64,000 nucleotides of DNA. Source: Candidatus Didemnitutus sp. (GTDB lineage: Bacteria; Verrucomicrobiota; Verrucomicrobiia; Opitutales; Opitutaceae). Below, piece after piece: positions 24,218 to 33,159 of the stretch (its first letter is position 1; the number at the start of each line of letters is the position of its first letter). The position numbers were made by a program, and so were the translations under genes. The stretch spans positions 2,852,001 through 2,916,000 of the forward strand of contig JAHCAY010000001.1 of the NCBI GenBank assembly GCA_019634575.1, in the 5' to 3' direction. Under the pieces are notes generated by a model. The model was given only the letters and a program-made list of their open reading frames with translations. It made no database searches and was not told the DNA's origin.

Positions 24218-24250
24218 AATCTAGCGTATTACGCTAGATTCACTTTTTTC
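24218..24250. terminator. A+T-rich terminator hairpin between LysR gene and hisIE
   Basis: A perfect 9-bp stem, AATCTAGCG (24218-24226) and CGCTAGATT (24232-24240), has loop TATTA. On the plus strand it is followed by CACTTTTTTCCC, a good U-tract for the LysR transcript. On the minus strand it follows the hisIE stop directly. The low G+C is unusual for this genome. Confidence 0.75.
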
Positions 24251-24857
24251 CCGTGTGGCGTTTCTCGAGAACGCTGAGGGCGTCTTGGAGCGAGAGGCCT
24301 TTGACGCGGAGGAGCACGATGAGGTGGAAGAGCAGGTCGGCGGCTTCGTTGGCGAGCTCGACGTTGTCGCCGGCGGTGGCGGCGAGCGCGGTTTCCACGC
24401 CTTCCTCGCCGACTTTCTGCGCGACGCGCTTCACGCCTTCGCGGACGAGTTTGGCGGTGTAGCTTTTCTCGTCATCGGAGGCGATGCGCCGGTTCACGGT
24501 GCGTTCGAGCTGGGCGAGGAAACCGGTGCCGGTGGCGCCGCCGCCTTCGCCGAAGCACGAGCAGGTGCCGCGGTGGCAGGTGGGGCCGTTCGGGCGCGCG
24601 CGGACAAGCAGCGTGTCGTTGTCGCAGTCGCCCTCGACGCTCACGAGGTCGAGGAAGTGGCCGGACGATTCACCCTTGATCCAGAGGCGGTTCTTCGAGC
24701 GCGAGAAGAAGGTGATGCGCTTCGTCGCGAGCGTCTGCTCGAGTGCGGCGGCGTTCATGTAGCCGAGCATGAGGACTTGCTGCGTGTCGGCGTCCTGGAT
24801 GATGGCGGGGAGGAGGCCGTCGCCTTTCTGCCAGTCGAGAGCGGAGAGAGCGGTCAT
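24240..24857 (-). CDS. hisI: bifunctional phosphoribosyl-AMP cyclohydrolase / phosphoribosyl-ATP pyrophosphatase
   Basis: HisIE catalyses steps 2 and 3 of histidine synthesis. The N-terminal cyclohydrolase part (1-115) has [29 protein letters not shown], the metal-binding CDNDT and the zinc cysteines in CHRGTCSCF. The C-terminal pyrophosphatase part (about 125-205) has KSYTAKL..EG and [13 protein letters not shown] followed by [14 protein letters not shown]. The 205-aa fusion is the usual length. The ATG at 24857 was chosen; the longer frame (13 more residues) is translated repeat DNA. It is the last gene of the his operon, separated from hisF by a repeat-filled 175-bp gap. Confidence 0.95.
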
Positions 24858-24870
24858 GGGAAATTTTGGA

Positions 24871-24960
24871 AACCACGAATGGACACGAATGAACACGAAT
24901 CAGGAAAAGCTGAATCGTGAGCCGGAGTCATTCGTGTGAATTCGTGTCCATTCGTGGTTA
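24871..24960. repeat. CACGAAT inverted repeat in the his operon
   Basis: Arm 24871-24900 contains three CACGAAT units in tandem (ACCACGAATGGACACGAATG...). Arm 24929-24960 is its reverse complement (ATTCGTGTCCATTCGTGG). The loop is about 28 bases. The element lies between hisF and hisIE, would fold as a long hairpin in the his mRNA, and is lower in G+C than the flanks. Confidence 0.85.
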
Positions 24961-25005
24961 AGTTTGTTTGGGTGTGGGTGAGAAGGTTCGGTCTCTGGCC
25001 TGACT

Positions 25006-25026
25006 GGGCCAGTCGGAGACTGGCCC
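25006..25026. repeat. GGGCCAGTC hairpin after hisF
   Basis: A perfect 9-bp stem, GGGCCAGTC (25006-25014) and GACTGGCCC (25018-25026), has a three-base loop. It begins 7 bases downstream of the hisF stop on the coding strand. There is no U-tract, so it looks like a REP-type palindrome rather than a terminator. Confidence 0.7.
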
Positions 25027-25032
25027 TACTTT

Positions 25033-25800
25033 TCAGGTGCGGACGCAGACGCCTTCGCGGGCGAGGTAGGATTTCAGGTCGGGGATCGGGATGGTGCCCT
25101 TGTGGAAGACGGACGCGGCGAGCGCGCCGTCCACGCCGGCTTGTTGGAAAACGTCGCGGAAATGCTCCGGCGCGCCCGCGCCGCCGGAGGCGACGAGCGG
25201 GATCGTCAGCACGGCGCGGACGAGTTTGAGCTGCGCGAGGTCGTAGCCGGCGCGCACGCCGTCCTGGTTCATGCAATTGAGCACGACCTCGCCGGCGCCG
25301 CGCTTCTGCGCCTCGGCGGCCCAGTCGATCGTGCGCCAGCGCGTGGACTGCGTCTTGTCGGGATTGCCGGTGTAGGCCTTCACGAAGTAGTCGCCGTTTT
25401 CCTGGCGGGAGTCGATGCCGACGACGACGGCTTGCGAGCCGAATTCGTCGGCCAGTGAGGTGATCAGATCCGGGTTTTCGAGGGCGGGCGAGTTGAGCGA
25501 GACCTTGTCGGCGCCGCTGTGGAGGATCACGCGTGCGCCGTCGAGCGAGCGGATGCCGCCGGCGACGCAGAAAGGGATGTCGATCACGCGGGCGACGCGC
25601 TCGACCCACGCGGCGGAGACGGTGCGGCCGTCGGAGCTGGCGGTGATGTCGTAGAAGACGAGCTCGTCGGCGCCGGCGTCGCGGTAGCGTTGGGCCAGCT
25701 CGATGATGTCGCCCATGTCCTCGTGGTTGCGGAACTGGACGCCTTTGACGACGCGGCCATCGCGGACGTCGAGGCAGGGGATGATGCGGCGGGCTAGCAT
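25033..25800 (-). CDS. hisF: imidazole glycerol phosphate synthase, cyclase subunit
   Basis: HisF is the TIM-barrel half of IGP synthase; it uses ammonia from HisH to form IGP and AICAR from PRFAR. The 255-aa protein starts [23 protein letters not shown] with the catalytic Asp in CLDV, and has VGIDSR with the second catalytic Asp. [12 protein letters not shown] and [13 protein letters not shown] are the phosphate-binding loops. The ATG at 25800 lies inside the end of hisA (7-base overlap), a coupling arrangement. All residues needed for activity are present. Confidence 0.97.
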
Positions 25801-26522
25801 ACGAGCGCCTCCTGGAGCGTGAACTTCTTCTCGTAGAGCGCGCGGCCGACGATGGCGCCGGGGGCACCTTCGCGCTTGAGGCGGCGGAGGTCGTCGAGCG
25901 AGGAAACGCCGCCGGACGCTTGCGCGTCGATGGTCGGAAAATCGCGGCGCAGCTGCGCGTAGAGCTCGAAGTTCGGACCGGTCAGCTTGCCGTCGCGCGA
26001 GATGTCGGTGCAGAGGATGTGTTTCAGTCCGCGCGGGATAAACGTGCGCAGCGTGGCGTCGAGTGTGACGCCGCTGTCGGCTTGCCAGCCGGCGACGGCG
26101 ATCATCGGCACGCCGGCGGCGTTGAGGCGGACGTCGAGCGCGAGGACGATTTTCTCCGGGCCGAATTTCTCGAGCCAGCCGCCGACGAGGTCGGGTTGTT
26201 TCACGGCGAGGCTGCCGACGATCACGCGCGTGACGCCGGCGTCGAGGAGCGTGCGAACGTGCGACTCGTCGCGGACGCCGCCGCCGGATTGGACGCGTAG
26301 GCCACAGGCTTGGACGATGGCGGCGACGAGCGCGGTCTGGCGCTGCGCGGGGTCCTTGGCGCCGTCGAGGTCGACGAGGTGCAGCCACGGCGAGCCCGCG
26401 GCGGCGAAGTCGCGCGCGACGGCGGCGGGGTCGTCGAAGTAGGCTTTCTCGGCGTCGAAGCTGCCCTCGGTGAGGCGCACGACGCGCCCGCGGCGGAGGT
26501 CGATGGCGGGATAAAGGATCAT
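25794..26522 (-). CDS. hisA: ProFAR isomerase
   Basis: HisA converts ProFAR to PRFAR, step 4 of the pathway, in a TIM barrel related to HisF. The 242-aa sequence has the catalytic Asp in [13 protein letters not shown] and the second Asp in [11 protein letters not shown]. The phosphate sites are [13 protein letters not shown] and [14 protein letters not shown]. The start overlaps the hisH stop by ATGA and the end overlaps hisF. No anomaly was seen. Confidence 0.97.
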
Positions 26523-27112
26523 GCGGTGATGGCCAAAAAATTCTTCAGCAGCTGTGCGCCCGCGAAACCGGAGCGCTCGGGATGGAATTGCACGCCGTAG
26601 AAGTTGCCGCGCTGGACGACGGCGGCGAAGGGCGTGCCGTGCGTGGCGCTGGCGAGTGTGTGGGCGTTCACCGGGCCGGCGTAGCTGTGGACGAAATAGA
26701 AACGCGCGTCGCGGGCGATGCCGTGGAGGAGCGGTGTGTCGCGCAGGACTTCGAGGGTGTTCCAGCCCATGTGCGGCACGGTGATGCCGGGCGACTCGGG
26801 AATTCGGGCGACGCGGCCGGGGATGAGGCCGAGGGAGGTGGTGTCGCCCTCGTCGGAGGAGTCGAAGAGGAGCTGCTCGCCGAGGCAGAAGCCGATCACG
26901 GGTTGTGTGAGGCTGCGGATGGTGTCCACGAGATCGCGCGCGCGGAGTTTGCGCATGCCTTCCTGCGCGGAGCCCACGCCGGGCAGGATCACGCGGTCGG
27001 CCGAGCGGATGGTCGCGGGATCGGCGGTGAGCTGGCTGGCGATGCCGAGGCGCTCGAGCGCGAAGCGCACCGAGGCGATGTTGGCGCCGCCGCTGTCGAC
27101 GATGGCTAACAT
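26519..27112 (-). CDS. hisH: imidazole glycerol phosphate synthase, glutamine amidotransferase subunit
   Basis: HisH hydrolyses glutamine and channels ammonia to HisF. The 197-aa class I amidotransferase has the nucleophile Cys in [10 protein letters not shown] and the His/Glu of the triad in [10 protein letters not shown]. The oxyanion strand is [13 protein letters not shown]. The usual CLGMQ reads CLGEQ here, a mild change next to the nucleophile. The start shares one base with the hisB stop (TGATG). Confidence 0.96.
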
Positions 27113-28179
27113 CAGAGCACTCCCTTCGAACTCGGAATGTCGCTGCCGGCGGTGCGGGCGACGGCAGGGCGCAAGGCGCGGCCGAAACCCTTGAAGAGCG
27201 CTTCGATCATGTGGTGGGTGTTGTCGCCCGTGACCTTCATGTGGAGCGTGGCGGCGAGCGTATCGCTGAGCGATTTGAAGAAGTGCGAGACCATCTCGGT
27301 CGGCAGTTCGCCGACATTTTCGCGCGGGAAATCCGCTTCGAAGACCAGCCAGGCGCGGCCGCTGAGATCGAGGGCGACGTCGGCGCGCGCCTCGTCCATC
27401 GGCATGACGAAACCGTAGCGGCCGATGCCGCGTTTGTCGCCGAGGGCCTGCTTGAGCGCGGTGCCGAGGGCGAGGCCGACGTCCTCGATGGTGTGGTGTT
27501 CGTCGATGTGGAGATCGCCGTCGCAGGTGATGACGAGGCTGATGCCGGCGTTGCGGGCGATTTGCTCGAGCATGTGGTCGAAGAACCCTAGGCCGGTGCG
27601 GAACGAGACGGGCGCGGTGGCGTCGAGGTCCACGGTGACGGTGATCTTCGTTTCTTTGGTCTCGCGTTTGATGGTGGCGCGGCGCGGGGCGTCGACGAGC
27701 TGGCGGGCGAGTTCGGTCCAATTGAGCTTGGTGCGGTCGTAGCGCAGGCCGCGGATGCCGAGCGTCTCAGCGAGTTGCAGGTCGGTTTCGCGGTCGCCGA
27801 TGACGGCGGAAGCGGCGCGGTCCCACGCGGTGTCGCGCAGATAGTCCATGACGAGGCCGGGTTTCGGTTTTCGGCAATCGCAACGGTCGGCGGCGGTGTG
27901 CGGGCAGACGCGGACGGCCTCGAATTTGATGCCCTGCGAGGCGAGGAGGTTGATCAACAGGTCTTGTAGCGGGCGGAACTCGCTCTCGCGGAAGCTCGGC
28001 GTGCCGAGGCCATCCTGATTCGTGACCATGACGAAGGTGTAGCCGGCATCGCGCAGGCGGCGGAGCGCAGGGATGACCTCGGGTTCGAGGGCGAATTTGT
28101 CGAGGCGGTCGATCTGCTGGTCGACGGGCTCGGCGATGAGCGTGCCGTCGCGGTCGAGGAAGAGGAGTTTCTTAGACAT
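27112..28179 (-). CDS. hisB: bifunctional histidinol-phosphatase / imidazoleglycerol-phosphate dehydratase
   Basis: Fused HisB performs the dehydratase step and the histidinol-phosphate phosphatase step. The N-terminal HAD phosphatase (1-165) has FLDRDGTLI, VTNQDGLGTPSF, the zinc cluster CPH...CDCRKPKPG and the GDRETD motif. The C-terminal dehydratase (about 168-355) has the manganese-binding FFDHMLEQIARNAG, DEHHTIEDVGLALG and GDNTHHMIEALFKGFGRAL. At 355 aa this equals the E. coli type. Many bacteria have only a monofunctional dehydratase. A purine-rich repeat separates it from hisC upstream. Confidence 0.97.
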   Translation of the reverse strand: MSKKLLFLDRDGTLIAEPVDQQIDRLDKFALEPEVIPALRRLRDAGYTFVMVTNQDGLGTPSFRESEFRPLQDLLINLLASQGIKFEAVRVCPHTAADRCDCRKPKPGLVMDYLRDTAWDRAASAVIGDRETDLQLAETLGIRGLRYDRTKLNWTELARQLVDAPRRATIKRETKETKITVTVDLDATAPVSFRTGLGFFDHMLEQIARNAGISLVITCDGDLHIDEHHTIEDVGLALGTALKQALGDKRGIGRYGFVMPMDEARADVALDLSGRAWLVFEADFPRENVGELPTEMVSHFFKSLSDTLAATLHMKVTGDNTHHMIEALFKGFGRALRPAVARTAGSDIPSSKGVL

Positions 28180-28211
28180 CGGAGCGTGGGAGCGAACGCG
28201 CGGATTTGGCG

Positions 28212-28250
28212 GAAGAAAGAGAAAGATTAAGAGAAAGAGGAAAGATTTCG
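28212..28250. repeat. purine-rich interspersed repeat, single unit (hisB-hisC gap)
   Basis: This segment reads almost purely A and G on the plus strand with one TTA interruption (GATTAAGAGAAAGAGG). It is one unit of a family also found at 46286-46393, 60210-60286, 63965-64000 and, in variant form, at 30613-30689. It fills the 72-bp gap between hisC and hisB. Confidence 0.85.
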
Positions 28251-28251
28251 C

Positions 28252-29313
28252 TCAGACACGGGCGAGGGTCTCCAGGGCGAAGTCGTTTTCGGCGCGCGTG
28301 CCGATGGTGATGCGGACGGTGTTGGGGACATCCTTGCTGCGGTCGCGGATGACGAGGCCAGCGGCGCGGGCGATGTTCATGACGCGGGCGGAGTCGGTGA
28401 CTTCGACGAGGAGGAAGTTGGCGTCGCTCGGCCAGATTTTGCGGACGTGCGGGAGCTTCACGAGGGCGGCGGTGAGGCGGCGGCGTTCACCGACGAGATC
28501 GAGGGCGGACTGGCGCGCGGCGGAGATGCCGGCGGGAGTGAGTGCATCGAGCGCGGCGCGGACGACCGGTGCGGGGATCGGGTAGGGCGCGATGATTTTT
28601 TGCAGGACGCCGATCAGTTGCGGCGAGGCGAGAGTGACGCCGACGCGCGCGCCGGCGAGGCCGTAGGCTTTCGAGAGCGTGCGGAGGACGACGAGGTTGG
28701 GGTTGGCGTCGAGTTCCTGCACGAGACTCGGTTCGGTGGAGAACTCGGCGTAAGCTTCGTCAACCACGACGACGGCGCGCGTGGCGAGGGCGGTGACGAC
28801 TTTGAGGACGGCGTCGCGATCGAGGAGCTGGCCGGTGGGGTTGTTGGGCGAGCAGAGGAAAACGAGTTTGGTTTCGGGCGTGATTGCGCGGATGACGGCG
28901 TCGGGATCGACGGCGAAGTCTTTTTCGCGGACGAGCGGAACGGTGAGGGCGCGGGCGCCCTGGATGGCGGCGGCGACGGAATACATGCCGTAGGTCGGCG
29001 GAGTGGTGAGAATCGAATCCTGGCCGGCGCGGCAGAAGGCGCGGAGGAGGAGGTCGATGCCTTCGTCGGAGCCGCGCGTGACGAGGATGCGGTCGGGTTT
29101 GACGCCGTAGAGCGAGGCGAGGCGCGCGACGACTTCGGCGGGTTGCGGCTCGGGGTAACGGTTCAGGCGCGGTGCGCCGGCGTGCGGGGTCGAGGGATTT
29201 TCGTTGGCGTCGAGCCAGACTTTGCCGCCGGAGGCTTCCTTGCGGGCCGATGAATACGGCGTGAGCGCGAGGATTTCGGCGCGGACGAGAGAGAGCACGG
29301 GGTCGGAGGTCAT
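28252..29313 (-). CDS. hisC: histidinol-phosphate aminotransferase
   Basis: HisC transfers an amino group from glutamate to imidazole acetol phosphate with PLP. The 353-aa fold-type I protein has WLDANENPSTP, YGVKPDRILVTRGSDEGIDLL, the FLCSPNNPTGQ loop, VVDEAYAEF and the PLP lysine in RTLSKAYGLAGARVG. RIT near the C-terminus (VRITIGT) carries the conserved Arg. The ATG at 29313 overlaps the hisD stop (ATGA). It is the third gene of the operon. Confidence 0.96.
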   Translation of the reverse strand: MTSDPVLSLVRAEILALTPYSSARKEASGGKVWLDANENPSTPHAGAPRLNRYPEPQPAEVVARLASLYGVKPDRILVTRGSDEGIDLLLRAFCRAGQDSILTTPPTYGMYSVAAAIQGARALTVPLVREKDFAVDPDAVIRAITPETKLVFLCSPNNPTGQLLDRDAVLKVVTALATRAVVVVDEAYAEFSTEPSLVQELDANPNLVVLRTLSKAYGLAGARVGVTLASPQLIGVLQKIIAPYPIPAPVVRAALDALTPAGISAARQSALDLVGERRRLTAALVKLPHVRKIWPSDANFLLVEVTDSARVMNIARAAGLVIRDRSKDVPNTVRITIGTRAENDFALETLARV

Positions 29314-30611
29314 CGGGAGAGTTTCTGGAGGCGGACAGTGACGGCGCGGCGGTGGGCGACGAGGCTCTCGGCGTCGGCGAGGCGGGCGACGGTGCCGCCT
29401 AGGCGGGCGAAGCCGAGCGGCGTGGCTTCCTGCACGGTCATCGTGCGCGAGAAGTCGGCGAGGCCGAGGCCGCTGAACGAGCGCGCCCAGCCGTAGGTCG
29501 GCAGGACGTGGTTCGTGCCGCTCGCGTAGTCGCCGAGCGACTCGGGCGTCCATGGGCCGACGAAGACCGAGCCGGCCGCGGTGATCTGCGGGAGCAGGCG
29601 GCGTGGGTTGGCGAGCTGGAGGATGAGGTGCTCGGGCGCGTAGGCGTTGGCGATTTTGACGGCTTCGGCGGGCGAGGCGGCGAGGAGGACGCGGCTCTTT
29701 TTCAGCGCGACTTCGGCGATCTCGCGGCGGGGGAGGAGGCGAAGTTGCACGGCGACCTCGGTGGCGACGCGCGCGGCGATTTTTTCGGAGAAGGTGACCA
29801 GCACGACCTGCGAATCGGGGCCGTGCTCGGCTTGCGAGAGGAGGTCGGCGGCGACGAAGGCCGGATCGGCGGTGCGATCAGCGATGACCATGACCTCGGA
29901 GGGGCCGGCGGGCATGTCGATGGCGGCGCCGGCGGCGGAGCGCGAGACTTGGAGCTTCGCTTCGGTGACAAAGGCGTTGCCGGGGCCGAAGAGTTTGTCG
30001 CACTTCGGAATCGTTTTCGTGCCGGCGGCCATGGCGGCGATGGCCTGCGCGCCGCCGACCTTGAAGACGTCGGTGATGCCGCAGAGCTGCGCGGCGAAAA
30101 GGATCCAGGGGTTCACGCGGCCGTCGCGACCGGGCGGCGTGCAGAGCACACGCGTCGGGCAACCGGCGAGCTGCGCGGGGACGCCGAGCATGAGCGCGGT
30201 GGAGAAGAGCGGCGCGCTGCCGCCCGGGACGTAGAGGCCGACGCGTTCGATGGGGCGAGTGACTTTTTCGCAGACGATGCCGGGCATCGTCTCGACGCGG
30301 ATAGATTTCGCGGCCTGCGCGGCGTGGAAGCGGCGGATGTTGCGGTAGGCGGTGCGGAGGGCGGCCTTGTCGGTGGGAGCGAGGGCTTTTTCGGCGGCGG
30401 CGAACTCGGCGGGGCTGACGCGCAGCGAAGTGAGTTTGGTGCCGTCGAATTTTGCCGTCAGGCGCTTCAACGCGGCGTCGCCGTCGTGGCACACCTCCAT
30501 GATGATGCGGGAGACGGCGCTCGCGATGTCGGTGCGGCGCGTCTGCGCGGGCCGTTCGAGAGTGGCGGCGCGGCGGGCGGGCGAGAGTTTTTTCCAGACG
30601 AGCGTTTGCAT
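29310..30611 (-). CDS. hisD: histidinol dehydrogenase
   Basis: HisD oxidises histidinol to histidine in two NAD-dependent steps. The 433-aa zinc enzyme has GLYVPGGSAPLFSTALMLGVPA, FGPGNAFVTEAK, the IDMPAGPSEVMVIAD block, DLLSQAEHGPDSQVVLVT with the conserved EH pair and NAYAPEHL, and ends with the DYASGTNHVLPTYG region. Length is normal. Its start lies two bases from a purine-rich inverted repeat that may contribute to the ribosome-binding region. hisC follows with an ATGA overlap. Confidence 0.97.
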   Translation of the reverse strand: MQTLVWKKLSPARRAATLERPAQTRRTDIASAVSRIIMEVCHDGDAALKRLTAKFDGTKLTSLRVSPAEFAAAEKALAPTDKAALRTAYRNIRRFHAAQAAKSIRVETMPGIVCEKVTRPIERVGLYVPGGSAPLFSTALMLGVPAQLAGCPTRVLCTPPGRDGRVNPWILFAAQLCGITDVFKVGGAQAIAAMAAGTKTIPKCDKLFGPGNAFVTEAKLQVSRSAAGAAIDMPAGPSEVMVIADRTADPAFVAADLLSQAEHGPDSQVVLVTFSEKIAARVATEVAVQLRLLPRREIAEVALKKSRVLLAASPAEAVKIANAYAPEHLILQLANPRRLLPQITAAGSVFVGPWTPESLGDYASGTNHVLPTYGWARSFSGLGLADFSRTMTVQEATPLGFARLGGTVARLADAESLVAHRRAVTVRLQKLSR

Positions 30612-30612
30612 G

Positions 30613-30689
30613 ATCTCGTTCTCGTTCTTCTTTCTCGTTCCTCGTTCTCCTCCGAAGAGAACGAGAACGATTACGAGAAAGAGAACGAG
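30613..30689. repeat. GAACGAG inverted repeat between hisG and hisD
   Basis: The pyrimidine arm (30613-30652) and purine arm (30654-30689; GAACGAGAACGATTACGAG...) are inverted copies. The purine arm shares the GATTA-C/A-GAGAAAGAG core with the family at 28212, 46359 and 60250, but carries ACG where the others have AAG. The element fills the whole hisG-hisD gap. Confidence 0.85.
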
Positions 30690-30693
30690 TCGT

Positions 30694-31611
30694 TCACATC
30701 ATCATCTTTTCGATCGGGAGCACAAGGATGGCGCTGGCGCCGGCGCGCTTGAGGGACTCCATGGTCTCCCAGAAGACGGCTTCCTGGCAGACGGCGTGGA
30801 GGGCGACCTTGGTGTCGTCGCCGGCGAGAGGGAGGATGGTCGGGTTCTCGGAGCCCGGGAGGAGTTTCTTGATCTCGGGCAGCGCGCTCTTCGGGGCGTG
30901 GAGCATGATGTATTTCGCTTCGGCGGCGAGCTGCACGCCGTCGATGCGGCGGAGCAGGATGTCGAGGGCGTGGCGCTTGGCGGCGTCGAGTGGGCGGTCG
31001 CAGCGGAGGAGCGTGGCCTTGGACTTGAAGATGGTTTCGACGGCGCGGAGGCGGTTGGCCTCGAGGGTGGATCCGGTGGCGACGAGGTCGCAGATGGCGT
31101 CGGCGAGGCCGAGGCGCGGGGCGATCTCGACCGAGCCGGTGAGGAGGACGACGTCGGCTTTCACGTTTTGCGCGGCGAGCCAGCGCTTGGTGAGGCGCGG
31201 GTAGGAAGTCGCGATGCGCAGGCCGGCGAGGTCGGCGGAGGAGGCGTAGCCGCGCTCCTCGGGGAGGGCGACAGCGAGGCGGCAGCCGCCGAAATCGAGG
31301 CGACGGTCGACGACGTAGGGGTTGTGCGTGCCGCCGGAGGTGCGCTCGAGGGCGGTTTCCTCGAGGACGTTCTCGCCGACGATGCCGAGGTCGCACACGC
31401 CGTCCATGACGAGCTGCGGGATGTCGTCGTCGCGGACGAAGAGGATGTCGATGGGGAAGTTCTCGGCGTGGAGGAGGAGTTTTTCCTTGGGGGCCTTGAC
31501 CTTGATGCCGCAGCGGTTGAGCAGGTCGAGGGAGTCGGTGGAGAGGCGTCCGCTCTTCTGGATGGCGAGGCGGAGGCGGTCTTTGGAGGCGGGAGTGACG
31601 ACGGGTGACAT
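30694..31611 (-). CDS. hisG: ATP phosphoribosyltransferase, long form
   Basis: HisG joins ATP and PRPP, the first and feedback-inhibited step of histidine synthesis. The 305-aa protein is the long form with a catalytic part (1-225: [64 protein letters not shown] with the PRPP loop) and an ACT-like C-terminal regulatory domain (about 230-300). Such enzymes need no HisZ. The ATG at 31611 gives [18 protein letters not shown]. It is the first structural gene, 151 bases downstream of the leader peptide stop. Confidence 0.97.
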
Positions 31612-31669: not shown

Positions 31670-31706
31670 AAAAGAAAAACCCCGGGGGCGAGTGCCACCG
31701 GGGTTT
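31670..31706 (-). terminator. his attenuator terminator
   Basis: On the minus strand a 9-bp stem (arms AAACCCCGG and CCGGGGTTT, plus coordinates 31698-31706 and 31677-31685) with a 12-base loop is followed by TTTTTCTTTT. It is a rho-independent terminator placed between the His-rich leader peptide and hisG. With no other gene to terminate here, its place fits an attenuator that stops transcription when histidine is plentiful. Confidence 0.85.
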
Positions 31707-31720
31707 CAGAAATTGGGTTT

Positions 31721-31763
31721 CATCACCACGGGAAGGCACGCTGCCTTCCCGGGCAGGGAAGGC
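31721..31763 (-). promoter_or_regulatory. his leader alternative-pairing segments
   Basis: Downstream of the leader codons the RNA holds three mutually exclusive arms: GCCTTCCC (31756-31763), GGGAAGGCA (31742-31750) and TGCCTTCCC (31730-31738). The second can pair perfectly with either the first or the third. Next, GTGGTGATG (31721-31729) is exactly complementary to the CATCACCAC of the leader His codons. This is the switchable pairing expected of attenuation control. Confidence 0.75.
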
Positions 31764-31798
31764 TAGGAGGAGTGGTGATGGTGGTGGTTGAGAACCAT
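31763..31798 (-). CDS. hisL: histidine operon leader peptide
   Basis: This ORF reads ATG GTT CTC AAC CAC CAC CAT CAC CAC TCC TCC TAG, that is MVLNHHHHHSS. Five consecutive histidine codons lie 151 bases upstream of hisG and just before a rho-independent terminator. In enterobacteria, a leader peptide of this kind senses charged tRNA-His: a ribosome stalled at the His codons favours the antiterminator. The peptide itself has no other known role. No strong Shine-Dalgarno is visible; GGCGG lies about 10-14 bases upstream. Identity of composition, position and downstream hairpin makes chance unlikely. Confidence 0.85.
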   Translation of the reverse strand: MVLNHHHHHSS

Positions 31799-31902
31799 GA
31801 CGAAGCGGACCGCCAAAAAGCCGGGATGGGCCGAAAGCGGCAAGCGATTTCTTTTGCCCGCCGCGGCATAAGTCCCGACAACGGGGCGCTCCCCCGACGC
31901 GA

Positions 31903-33159
31903 ATGAGTCACCCTTCGCACAACGCCGGCGACGATCGCGGGCATTACCATGAAGAATTTACGCCGCAACCCAGCGCGTGGGCCGGCGCGGCCGTGACGGT
32001 GGGCGCGACCTACGTCATCTTTCTGATTTTCGCGCAGTTCGGTTTCCTGAAGCTCGTGCAGAGCGTCGTGGGCGAGGGAAGCCCGCTGATGAAAGCGATC
32101 CTCGGGGTGATGGCCGTGGCGGGATTGGGCGGCAGCGCGTGGGCCGGCTGGACGTTCACGGATAGCCGGAGCCAGCGCCGGTTGGTGGCGATGTTCGCGA
32201 TCTGTGGGGCGGCGGCGGGTTTGAGCCTCGTGGCGCGCTCGGCGTGGCCGCTCTTCCTCGTGTCGCTCCTGATCGGGCTGGGCCTCGGCGGACTCACGGT
32301 CACGCTCGCCGGCACGTTGCGGCGGGTGACGGGCGGTGATCGGCTCGGTTCGGCGATCGGCCTCGGCACGGGCGCCGCCTACGCGATCTGCAATCTGCCG
32401 TTCGTCTTCAACGGCGGCCGGGAAACCCACGGGTTCGTCGCGCTCGCAGCGGCCTGCGTGGGCCTGATCGGCGTGCACCTGCTCGATGCGCGGGCGCCGC
32501 GGCAGGTGCCGAATAATTTCGACTATCAAACGCCCGGCCTCGTCGCGTGGGTGCTGGTGCTCCTGGCGCTCGTGTGGCTCGACAGCGGGGCGTTCAACAT
32601 CATCCAGCATTCGCCCTACCTGAAGGAAATGACGTGGGGCAGCGGACGTCTCTACGCGAACGCCGCGATCCATTTCGCGGCCGCGTTGCTGGCCGGCTAC
32701 ATGATGGACAAGCGCTGGATCGGTCGCGCCGTGCTGCTGGCCACGATGATGTTGCTCGCGGCCTGCCTGCTCATCGAGCCGAACCGCGCCAAGCTCACCG
32801 AGGGCGTGTTGCTCTACACCGCCGCGGTTTCGATCTACTCGACCGCGCTCGTTTTCTATCCCTCGCGCAGCAGTCGCGCGAAATGCGCCGCGATCGTCTA
32901 CGGTGTCGCCGGCTGGATCGGCTCCGGGCTGGGCATCTCGATGGTGGAGGGGCTTTCCGCGATCCCGCGCTGGCTGGTGGTGACGGCTGGCGCCGTGGCC
33001 ATGGTGGGGCTTTTGATTCGCGGATGGATGTTGCGCCGCGAGGCGCGGCGGTTTGCGGCGGGATTGCTGGTGCTGGCGTTGCTTGCCGCCGGCGCGGCTT
33101 CGCCGGCGATCACCGGAAAATTTCCCGTTCGTTTAATGGAGTTGCCCACTCTGACATGA
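31903..33159 (+). CDS. MFS-like multi-pass membrane protein
   Basis: This 418-aa protein has about 12 transmembrane helices, with a short histidine-rich cytoplasmic start (MSHPSHNAGDDRGHYHEE). Major-facilitator-like glycine-rich helices (LIGLGLGGLTVTLAGTLRRVTGG) are visible, but no substrate-specific motif. The tail after the last helix (ASPAITGKFPVRLMELPTLT) is short. It lies upstream of the LTA-synthase-like gene with 65 bases between them and could be co-transcribed. The region upstream also carries the divergent his leader. Confidence 0.8.
   Translation: MSHPSHNAGDDRGHYHEEFTPQPSAWAGAAVTVGATYVIFLIFAQFGFLKLVQSVVGEGSPLMKAILGVMAVAGLGGSAWAGWTFTDSRSQRRLVAMFAICGAAAGLSLVARSAWPLFLVSLLIGLGLGGLTVTLAGTLRRVTGGDRLGSAIGLGTGAAYAICNLPFVFNGGRETHGFVALAAACVGLIGVHLLDARAPRQVPNNFDYQTPGLVAWVLVLLALVWLDSGAFNIIQHSPYLKEMTWGSGRLYANAAIHFAAALLAGYMMDKRWIGRAVLLATMMLLAACLLIEPNRAKLTEGVLLYTAAVSIYSTALVFYPSRSSRAKCAAIVYGVAGWIGSGLGISMVEGLSAIPRWLVVTAGAVAMVGLLIRGWMLRREARRFAAGLLVLALLAAGAASPAITGKFPVRLMELPTLT

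Follow-up and report, generated by a model that had tools for sequence, protein, structure and literature searches.

The window analysed here, a 64,000-nt stretch of a Candidatus Didemnitutus genome, carries a complete histidine operon, hisGDC(NB)HAF(IE), on the minus strand at 24240-31611, with a curated family match for each gene (Table 1). Judged by its gene order (hisGDCBHAFI, as in Enterobacterales), its long-form HisG and its fused HisB, the operon is of gammaproteobacterial type. The host itself had been called a Verrucomicrobium in a preliminary description of this DNA, and that call was supported.

Ahead of hisG lies a leader ORF, which reads ATG GTT CTC AAC CAC CAC CAT CAC CAC TCC TCC TAG on the minus strand (31798-31763). 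It is followed by three pairing arms and an intrinsic terminator, the latter positioned between the ORF and the hisG start at 31611. Direct reading of the sequence confirmed the ORF, arms and terminator at the coordinates first proposed for them. Three competing arms had been listed correctly, but the set was incomplete: it missed an antiterminator in which GTGCC of arm 3 pairs with GGCAC in the ascending side of the terminator. The pairing of GTGGTGATG with the His codons, also proposed at that stage, was present in the minimum free energy (MFE) fold and in 90% of cells among relatives. The first base of arm 1 is the G of the leader stop codon (31763), and the arm ends 7 nt past that codon, within an assumed 9-nt ribosome footprint; a ribosome modelled at the stop codon masks arm 1, as is expected of a ribosome-mediated his attenuator.

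Table 1. Features of the his operon and its leader, with positions in the window unless another sequence is named
Feature	Position	Strand	Family match, partner or remark
hisIE, bifunctional	24240..24896	-	NF002747; true start may be internal
hisF	25033..25800	-	TIGR00735
hisA	25794..26522	-	TIGR00007
hisH	26519..27112	-	TIGR01855
hisB, fused histidinol-phosphatase / IGP dehydratase, E. coli type	27112..28179	-	NF003937 (536 bits, cut-off 443)
hisC	28252..29313	-	TIGR01141
hisD	29310..30611	-	TIGR00069
hisG, long form with C-terminal regulatory domain	30694..31611	-	TIGR00070, TIGR03455, PF01634, PF08029
Intrinsic terminator hairpin, AAACCCCGG...CCGGGGTTT	31677..31706	-	U tract to ~31672
Antiterminator core, 3' side, GGCAC	31692..31696	-	within ascending side of terminator; pairs with GTGCC of arm 3 (31739-31735)
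Complement of the His codons, GTGGTGATG	31721..31729	-	9-bp helix with CATCACCAC in the MFE fold
Arm 3, GTGCCTTCCC (region D)	31730..31739	-	3' side of the 2:3 hairpin, 5' side of the antiterminator
Arm 2, GGGAAGGC (region C)	31743..31750	-	arm 1 or arm 3
Arm 1, GCCTTCCC (region B), overlapping the stop codon	31756..31763	-	arm 2
Leader ORF, MVLNHHHHHSS, stop TAG	31763..31798	-	direct reading
Sensor, five His codons in a row, CAC CAC CAT CAC CAC (region A)	31772..31786	-	
TTGC box upstream of the leader ORF	31840..31843	-	candidate -35 element of a promoter
Membrane protein, divergent, adjoining the leader	31903..33156	+	weak MFS similarity
Leader MTSSTKLSLHLFTALIIAVVILLTPSTGRLSHN and terminator before ilvD	G000:C1:1493554-1493717 = L261:2055-2218	-	same genome, outside the window

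Folding of the 136-nt leader gave -55.0 kcal/mol, compared with -34.3 +/- 3.5 in 200 dinucleotide shuffles (z -5.9, 0/200). A simple promoter and terminator scan was uninformative and did not list the terminator, probably because its loop exceeds the tool's 3-8 nt limit. Despite this miss, folding and conservation support the hairpin as a predicted terminator.

Conservation of the leader and its alternative pairings

The leader, the three arms and the terminator are retained in each of the 17 relatives that have a long-form HisG operon. Their leader ORFs contain 3-5 His codons each, and the stop codon, TAG (TGA in one), lies at or beside arm 1. The preliminary description had staked its reading on the His run and the terminator persisting in close relatives, and both were present in 17/17. 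We built a covariance model, R1, from the 17 Opitutaceae leaders only and searched 150 genomes of the family. This resulted in 13 matches above 108 bits, all in three genera with the long-form his operon; the next match scored 32 bits. A held-out 18th leader, L184 (genome G660), lay outside the training set and was found at 108.7 bits, with the leader peptide MVSYHHHHHVC upstream of a HisG 77% identical. As every element recurs in the 17 relatives and again in this 18th sequence, the leader is not a product of chance. The original identification as a his leader and attenuator is thereby backed by conservation, covariation and position before hisG. L184 also has a similar membrane protein at the same place as the one adjoining the leader here, so the neighborhood is at least partly conserved. 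We also looked for a Trp leader before trpE and found none in the 12 relatives' loci.

In 18/18 sequences a TTGC box stands 43-47 nt ahead of the leader start codon, with A-rich DNA before it; this box argues for transcription starting before the leader. The box fits a candidate -35 element, with a predicted start shortly before the leader. No clear Shine-Dalgarno sequence was seen before the leader ORF.

We then considered the pairings themselves. Across the 17-sequence alignment, helix 1:2 was paired in 99.3% of cells, helix 2:3 in 100% and the antiterminator GTGCC:GGCAC in 97.6%; controls with slid partners brought pairing down to 33-59%. The antiterminator shows one compensatory double change from U-A to C-G, in three related sequences, along with several G-U changes, and one of its pairs is broken in 2/17 sequences (L032 and L035).

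To model ribosome stalling, we placed a ribosome on each His codon and folded the pre-terminator RNA, which lacks the 3' half of the terminator; such folds describe equilibrium, with kinetics outside the model. In the modelled stalls, 17/17 sequences held the ascending side of the terminator in an upstream helix of ~10-16 bp (P about 1), and all eight gammaproteobacterial controls, E. coli among them, gave the same stalled outcome. When the ribosome was modelled at the stop codon, upstream pairing dropped in most sequences, though not in all, with E. coli among the exceptions. The equilibrium contrast between the stalled and at-stop states was modest in several sequences, and E. coli performed no better. 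Upstream pairing in the stalled state was moderately above that of middle-segment shuffles (mean 13.2 vs 9.6 bp), with individual shuffle fractions of 0.02-0.30. In these models, an exclusive antiterminator would thus form on His-codon stalling, by a moderate margin over shuffles. The modelled stalls, together with the reciprocal search presented below, in which R1 matched gammaproteobacterial his leaders, lend support to the attenuation mechanism that had been put forward from the letters alone.

The proposed switch would work as follows. With charged His-tRNA, the ribosome would complete the 11-aa peptide, halt at TAG and cover arm 1, leaving arm 2 to pair with arm 3 and the terminator to form. 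When His-tRNA is scarce, the ribosome would stall on the His codons, and arm 1 would be free to pair with arm 2. This 1:2 pairing would release arm 3, whose GTGCC could pair with GGCAC before the other side of the terminator is made; with the antiterminator formed, RNA polymerase would continue into hisG. If the leader were left untranslated, the His codons would pair with GTGGTGATG, stabilising the 2:3 hairpin and favoring termination. We infer that the leader regulates the operon in this way in vivo, from the promoter predicted above.

Origin of the operon and relation to known his attenuators

Among 388 genomes of the phylum, covering 198 sampled genera, a HisG this similar (E <= 1e-60) occurred in 14 genomes from only three genera; a separate search of relatives found a similar HisG in one further genus (G021). 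Protein identity between the three operon-bearing genera is 65-80%. Elsewhere in the order, the native HisG is of the short form and ~27-34% identical, and in the three loci examined it is encoded apart from the other his genes. The nearest HisG proteins outside the phylum, 58-62% identical, belong to Gammaproteobacteria, where all eight operon proteins have equivalents encoded in the same order. Concatenated trees place the Opitutaceae operons in a single clade (support 100) among or beside Gammaproteobacteria. This clade groups with GC-rich gammaproteobacterial MAGs at support 83/82, in trees with family f23 as the only non-proteobacterial outgroup and with uneven composition; in the AU test, placement as sister to all gammaproteobacterial sequences keeps p 0.23. 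Given the uneven composition and this p value, the tree names no donor. The computation itself shows that the leader elements are present and conserved, that they can pair in alternative ways and that the operon has gammaproteobacterial affinity; from these results we infer the direction of transfer and the kind of donor.

The operons of the tree-nearest gammaproteobacterial MAGs have a TrpR-family gene, YerC/YecD, directly before hisG and no attenuator (L043, L059, L098, L111, L113, L114 and L120; HMM-confirmed for L059). One regulator here takes the place of another on the same operon. The presence of this gene in the nearest MAGs indicates that the source of the leader was not that branch in its present-day form.

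Two further groups carry comparable operons. Family f23, of the same class, also has an operon of gammaproteobacterial order, hisGDCBHAFI. Two closely related genomes of this family (L040 and L041, from G105 and G343) have a His leader, MIWQVTIHHLHHHHVR, and a terminator before it, possibly a separate acquisition; no His leader was found in the other f23 operons examined. A Candidatus Neomarinimicrobiota MAG also has a his operon of gammaproteobacterial type; its His-rich leader, MNHHHINNHHMI, comes with a terminator (L074:5812-5949) and may represent a further phylum with a his leader, or MAG contamination.

We compared the leader with the Rfam His_leader family (RF00514), a search that the preliminary description had proposed as a check. 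RF00514 aligned over its full length (model positions 1-126, E 1e-4), but the gathering cut-off was not reached: the window scores 38.3 bits against a cut-off of 49 bits, and a scan of the window at the Rfam gathering thresholds gave no match. Sequences from E. coli, Yersinia, Aeromonas, Photobacterium and Bowmanella pass this cut-off, and none of the 388 phylum genomes has a match above it. Elsewhere in the phylum, the model reaches as much as 46.8 bits on unrelated loci, near the cut-off, so the RF00514 score alone is weak and sub-threshold matches need context. The reciprocal search with R1 is stronger evidence: it recovered the his leaders of 60/69 non-verrucomicrobial loci at E <= 0.01 (best 2e-11); these matches lie immediately upstream of hisG and extend across the full length of the model. 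The leader is best read as a divergent, horizontally acquired member of the His_leader kind, by homology and mechanism, that falls under the Rfam cut-off.

The likeness to gammaproteobacterial hisL leaders extends to their architecture. Both have a His-codon peptide whose TAG stop lies at arm 1, competing arms 1:2 and 2:3, a stretch complementary to the His codons that follows arm 3, an antiterminator that uses the ascending side of the terminator, and a site before hisG of a hisGDCBHAFI operon. The Opitutaceae leader differs from them in its shorter, G+C-rich arms, its 11-aa peptide with five His (versus 16 aa with seven), its antiterminator core (GTGCC:GGCAC versus ATCTTCC:GGAAGAT in E. coli), its lack of an obvious Shine-Dalgarno sequence, its sub-threshold RF00514 score and its host in another phylum.

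His attenuators are known from Proteobacteria and, independently, from some Firmicutes (PMC9413887, PMC2965389), where His leaders occur in the Bacillus cereus group, Peptostreptococcaceae and Erysipelotrichales (PMC9413887) and leaders also precede hisS*/hisZ (PMC2965389). The Firmicutes leaders resemble the one described here in having a His-run peptide and an alternative antiterminator and terminator before his genes, outside Proteobacteria. However, the Bacillus leaders have no sequence similarity to proteobacterial ones (PMC2965389), whereas the Opitutaceae leader does and stands on a gammaproteobacterial-type operon. Another parallel is the lysine riboswitch and operon of Thermotogales (PMC3766115), likewise a biosynthetic operon crossing phyla with a cis-regulatory RNA, though theirs is a metabolite-binding riboswitch and ours is predicted to act by ribosome-mediated attenuation. 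Among open-licence papers, we found none linking his attenuation to Verrucomicrobia or Opitut*.

The reading we favor, at a probability of roughly 0.9, is that a his attenuator of the Salmonella/E. coli type and the complete operon were acquired together, horizontally, by an ancestor in Opitutaceae from a gammaproteobacterial-type source. It is improbable that the attenuator instead arose independently in Opitutaceae and resembles its gammaproteobacterial counterparts by convergence. The sub-threshold RF00514 score would agree with convergence, as would the TrpR-family gene and missing leader in the tree-nearest operons and the repeated origins of His leaders outside Proteobacteria, for example in Firmicutes without proteobacterial sequence similarity (PMC2965389, PMC9413887). 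Convergence does not readily account for a model trained on Opitutaceae recovering outside his leaders at full length, nor for an order of elements (TAG, arm 1, ...CTTCC.GTGGTG.ATGA, terminator) that is the same as in E. coli. It also sits poorly with distribution: the leader accompanies the long-form operon in 18/18 cases, and no His-run ORF was found within 500 nt upstream of the native short HisG at any of 18 loci (0/18).

Distribution bears as well on vertical descent, in which operon and attenuator would be ancestral in Opitutaceae and lost in most genera. The operon clade is indeed old, as its spread over three genera and the protein identities between them indicate, but the leader is present in only 3/49 sampled genera of the family, the other genera have the dissimilar, separately located short HisG noted above, and the nearest relatives are Gammaproteobacteria. 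We consider such descent very unlikely. Less credible still is that the hairpin is a mere constitutive terminator or stability element and the His-run ORF no sensor. Such a view could draw on the leader being known from sequence alone and having no Shine-Dalgarno sequence; against it, the His run, both alternative pairings and the overlap of arm 1 with the stop codon persist together over 17 sequences, and an essential biosynthetic operon behind a terminator needs a way through. Joint acquisition of operon and attenuator also qualifies the preliminary view that the locus would broaden the reach of his attenuation: the phylum is new, but an independent verrucomicrobial origin does not hold up, as the attenuator most likely came with the operon.

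Ile/Val/Leu leaders and probable attenuation in Verrucomicrobiota

The same genome has a second putative attenuator of the classic kind outside the window, the leader MTSSTKLSLHLFTALIIAVVILLTPSTGRLSHN with a terminator before ilvD, followed by ilvB and leuA. In the model of this leader, an antiterminator GGGCGGC:GCCGCCC, with GCCGCCC lying in the terminator, pairs unless the ribosome reaches the stop codon. A model of the ilvD leader matched 8/160 family genomes, in two genera, and no Rfam family reached its cut-off at this site.

Different Ile/Val/Leu leaders occur in other members of the phylum. In family f51, four loci (L235, L237, L238 and L239) share a conserved ILV-rich peptide, MSISLANxxIVIIxSVxVLLGVSALRVLP, and a terminator before ilvB (TIGR00118), with ilvC downstream of ilvB in three of the four. 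The R1 matches in f51 had been taken as noise, a reading rejected once they were shown to be ILV leaders; the f51 leader is a candidate ilv attenuator in another class. In L253 (G039, of the same order and another family), a leader ending MLNVIRLVVVNVVVVVTNVVSAR and then a terminator lie upstream of ilvB, and the leader resembles an ilvB-type attenuator. Where tested, none of the Verrucomicrobiota Ile/Val/Leu leaders scored above a curated Rfam threshold.

The presence of such putative attenuators in the lineage suggests that the attenuation machinery is probably in use beyond the his operon. We lean slightly toward the broader view that Verrucomicrobiota make regular use of leader-peptide attenuation as a control, with an imported, still-functional his attenuator beside distinct Ile/Val/Leu attenuators; this view spans ilvD and ilvB leaders from this genus, from another family of the order and from another family of the phylum.

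A 2013 survey traced amino-acid attenuators to Gammaproteobacteria and held that they had seldom been transferred horizontally, in very few cases (PMC3766115). Set against that conclusion, the his leader of Opitutaceae is a well-supported transfer that the Rfam model missed, and it is a known kind of device, of predicted function, in a new phylum. Attenuation depends on fine timing of the ribosome, RNA polymerase and RNA folding. A transferred attenuator that keeps its alternative pairings across three genera is evidence for a recipient in which transcription and translation are coupled tightly enough for such a device to work.
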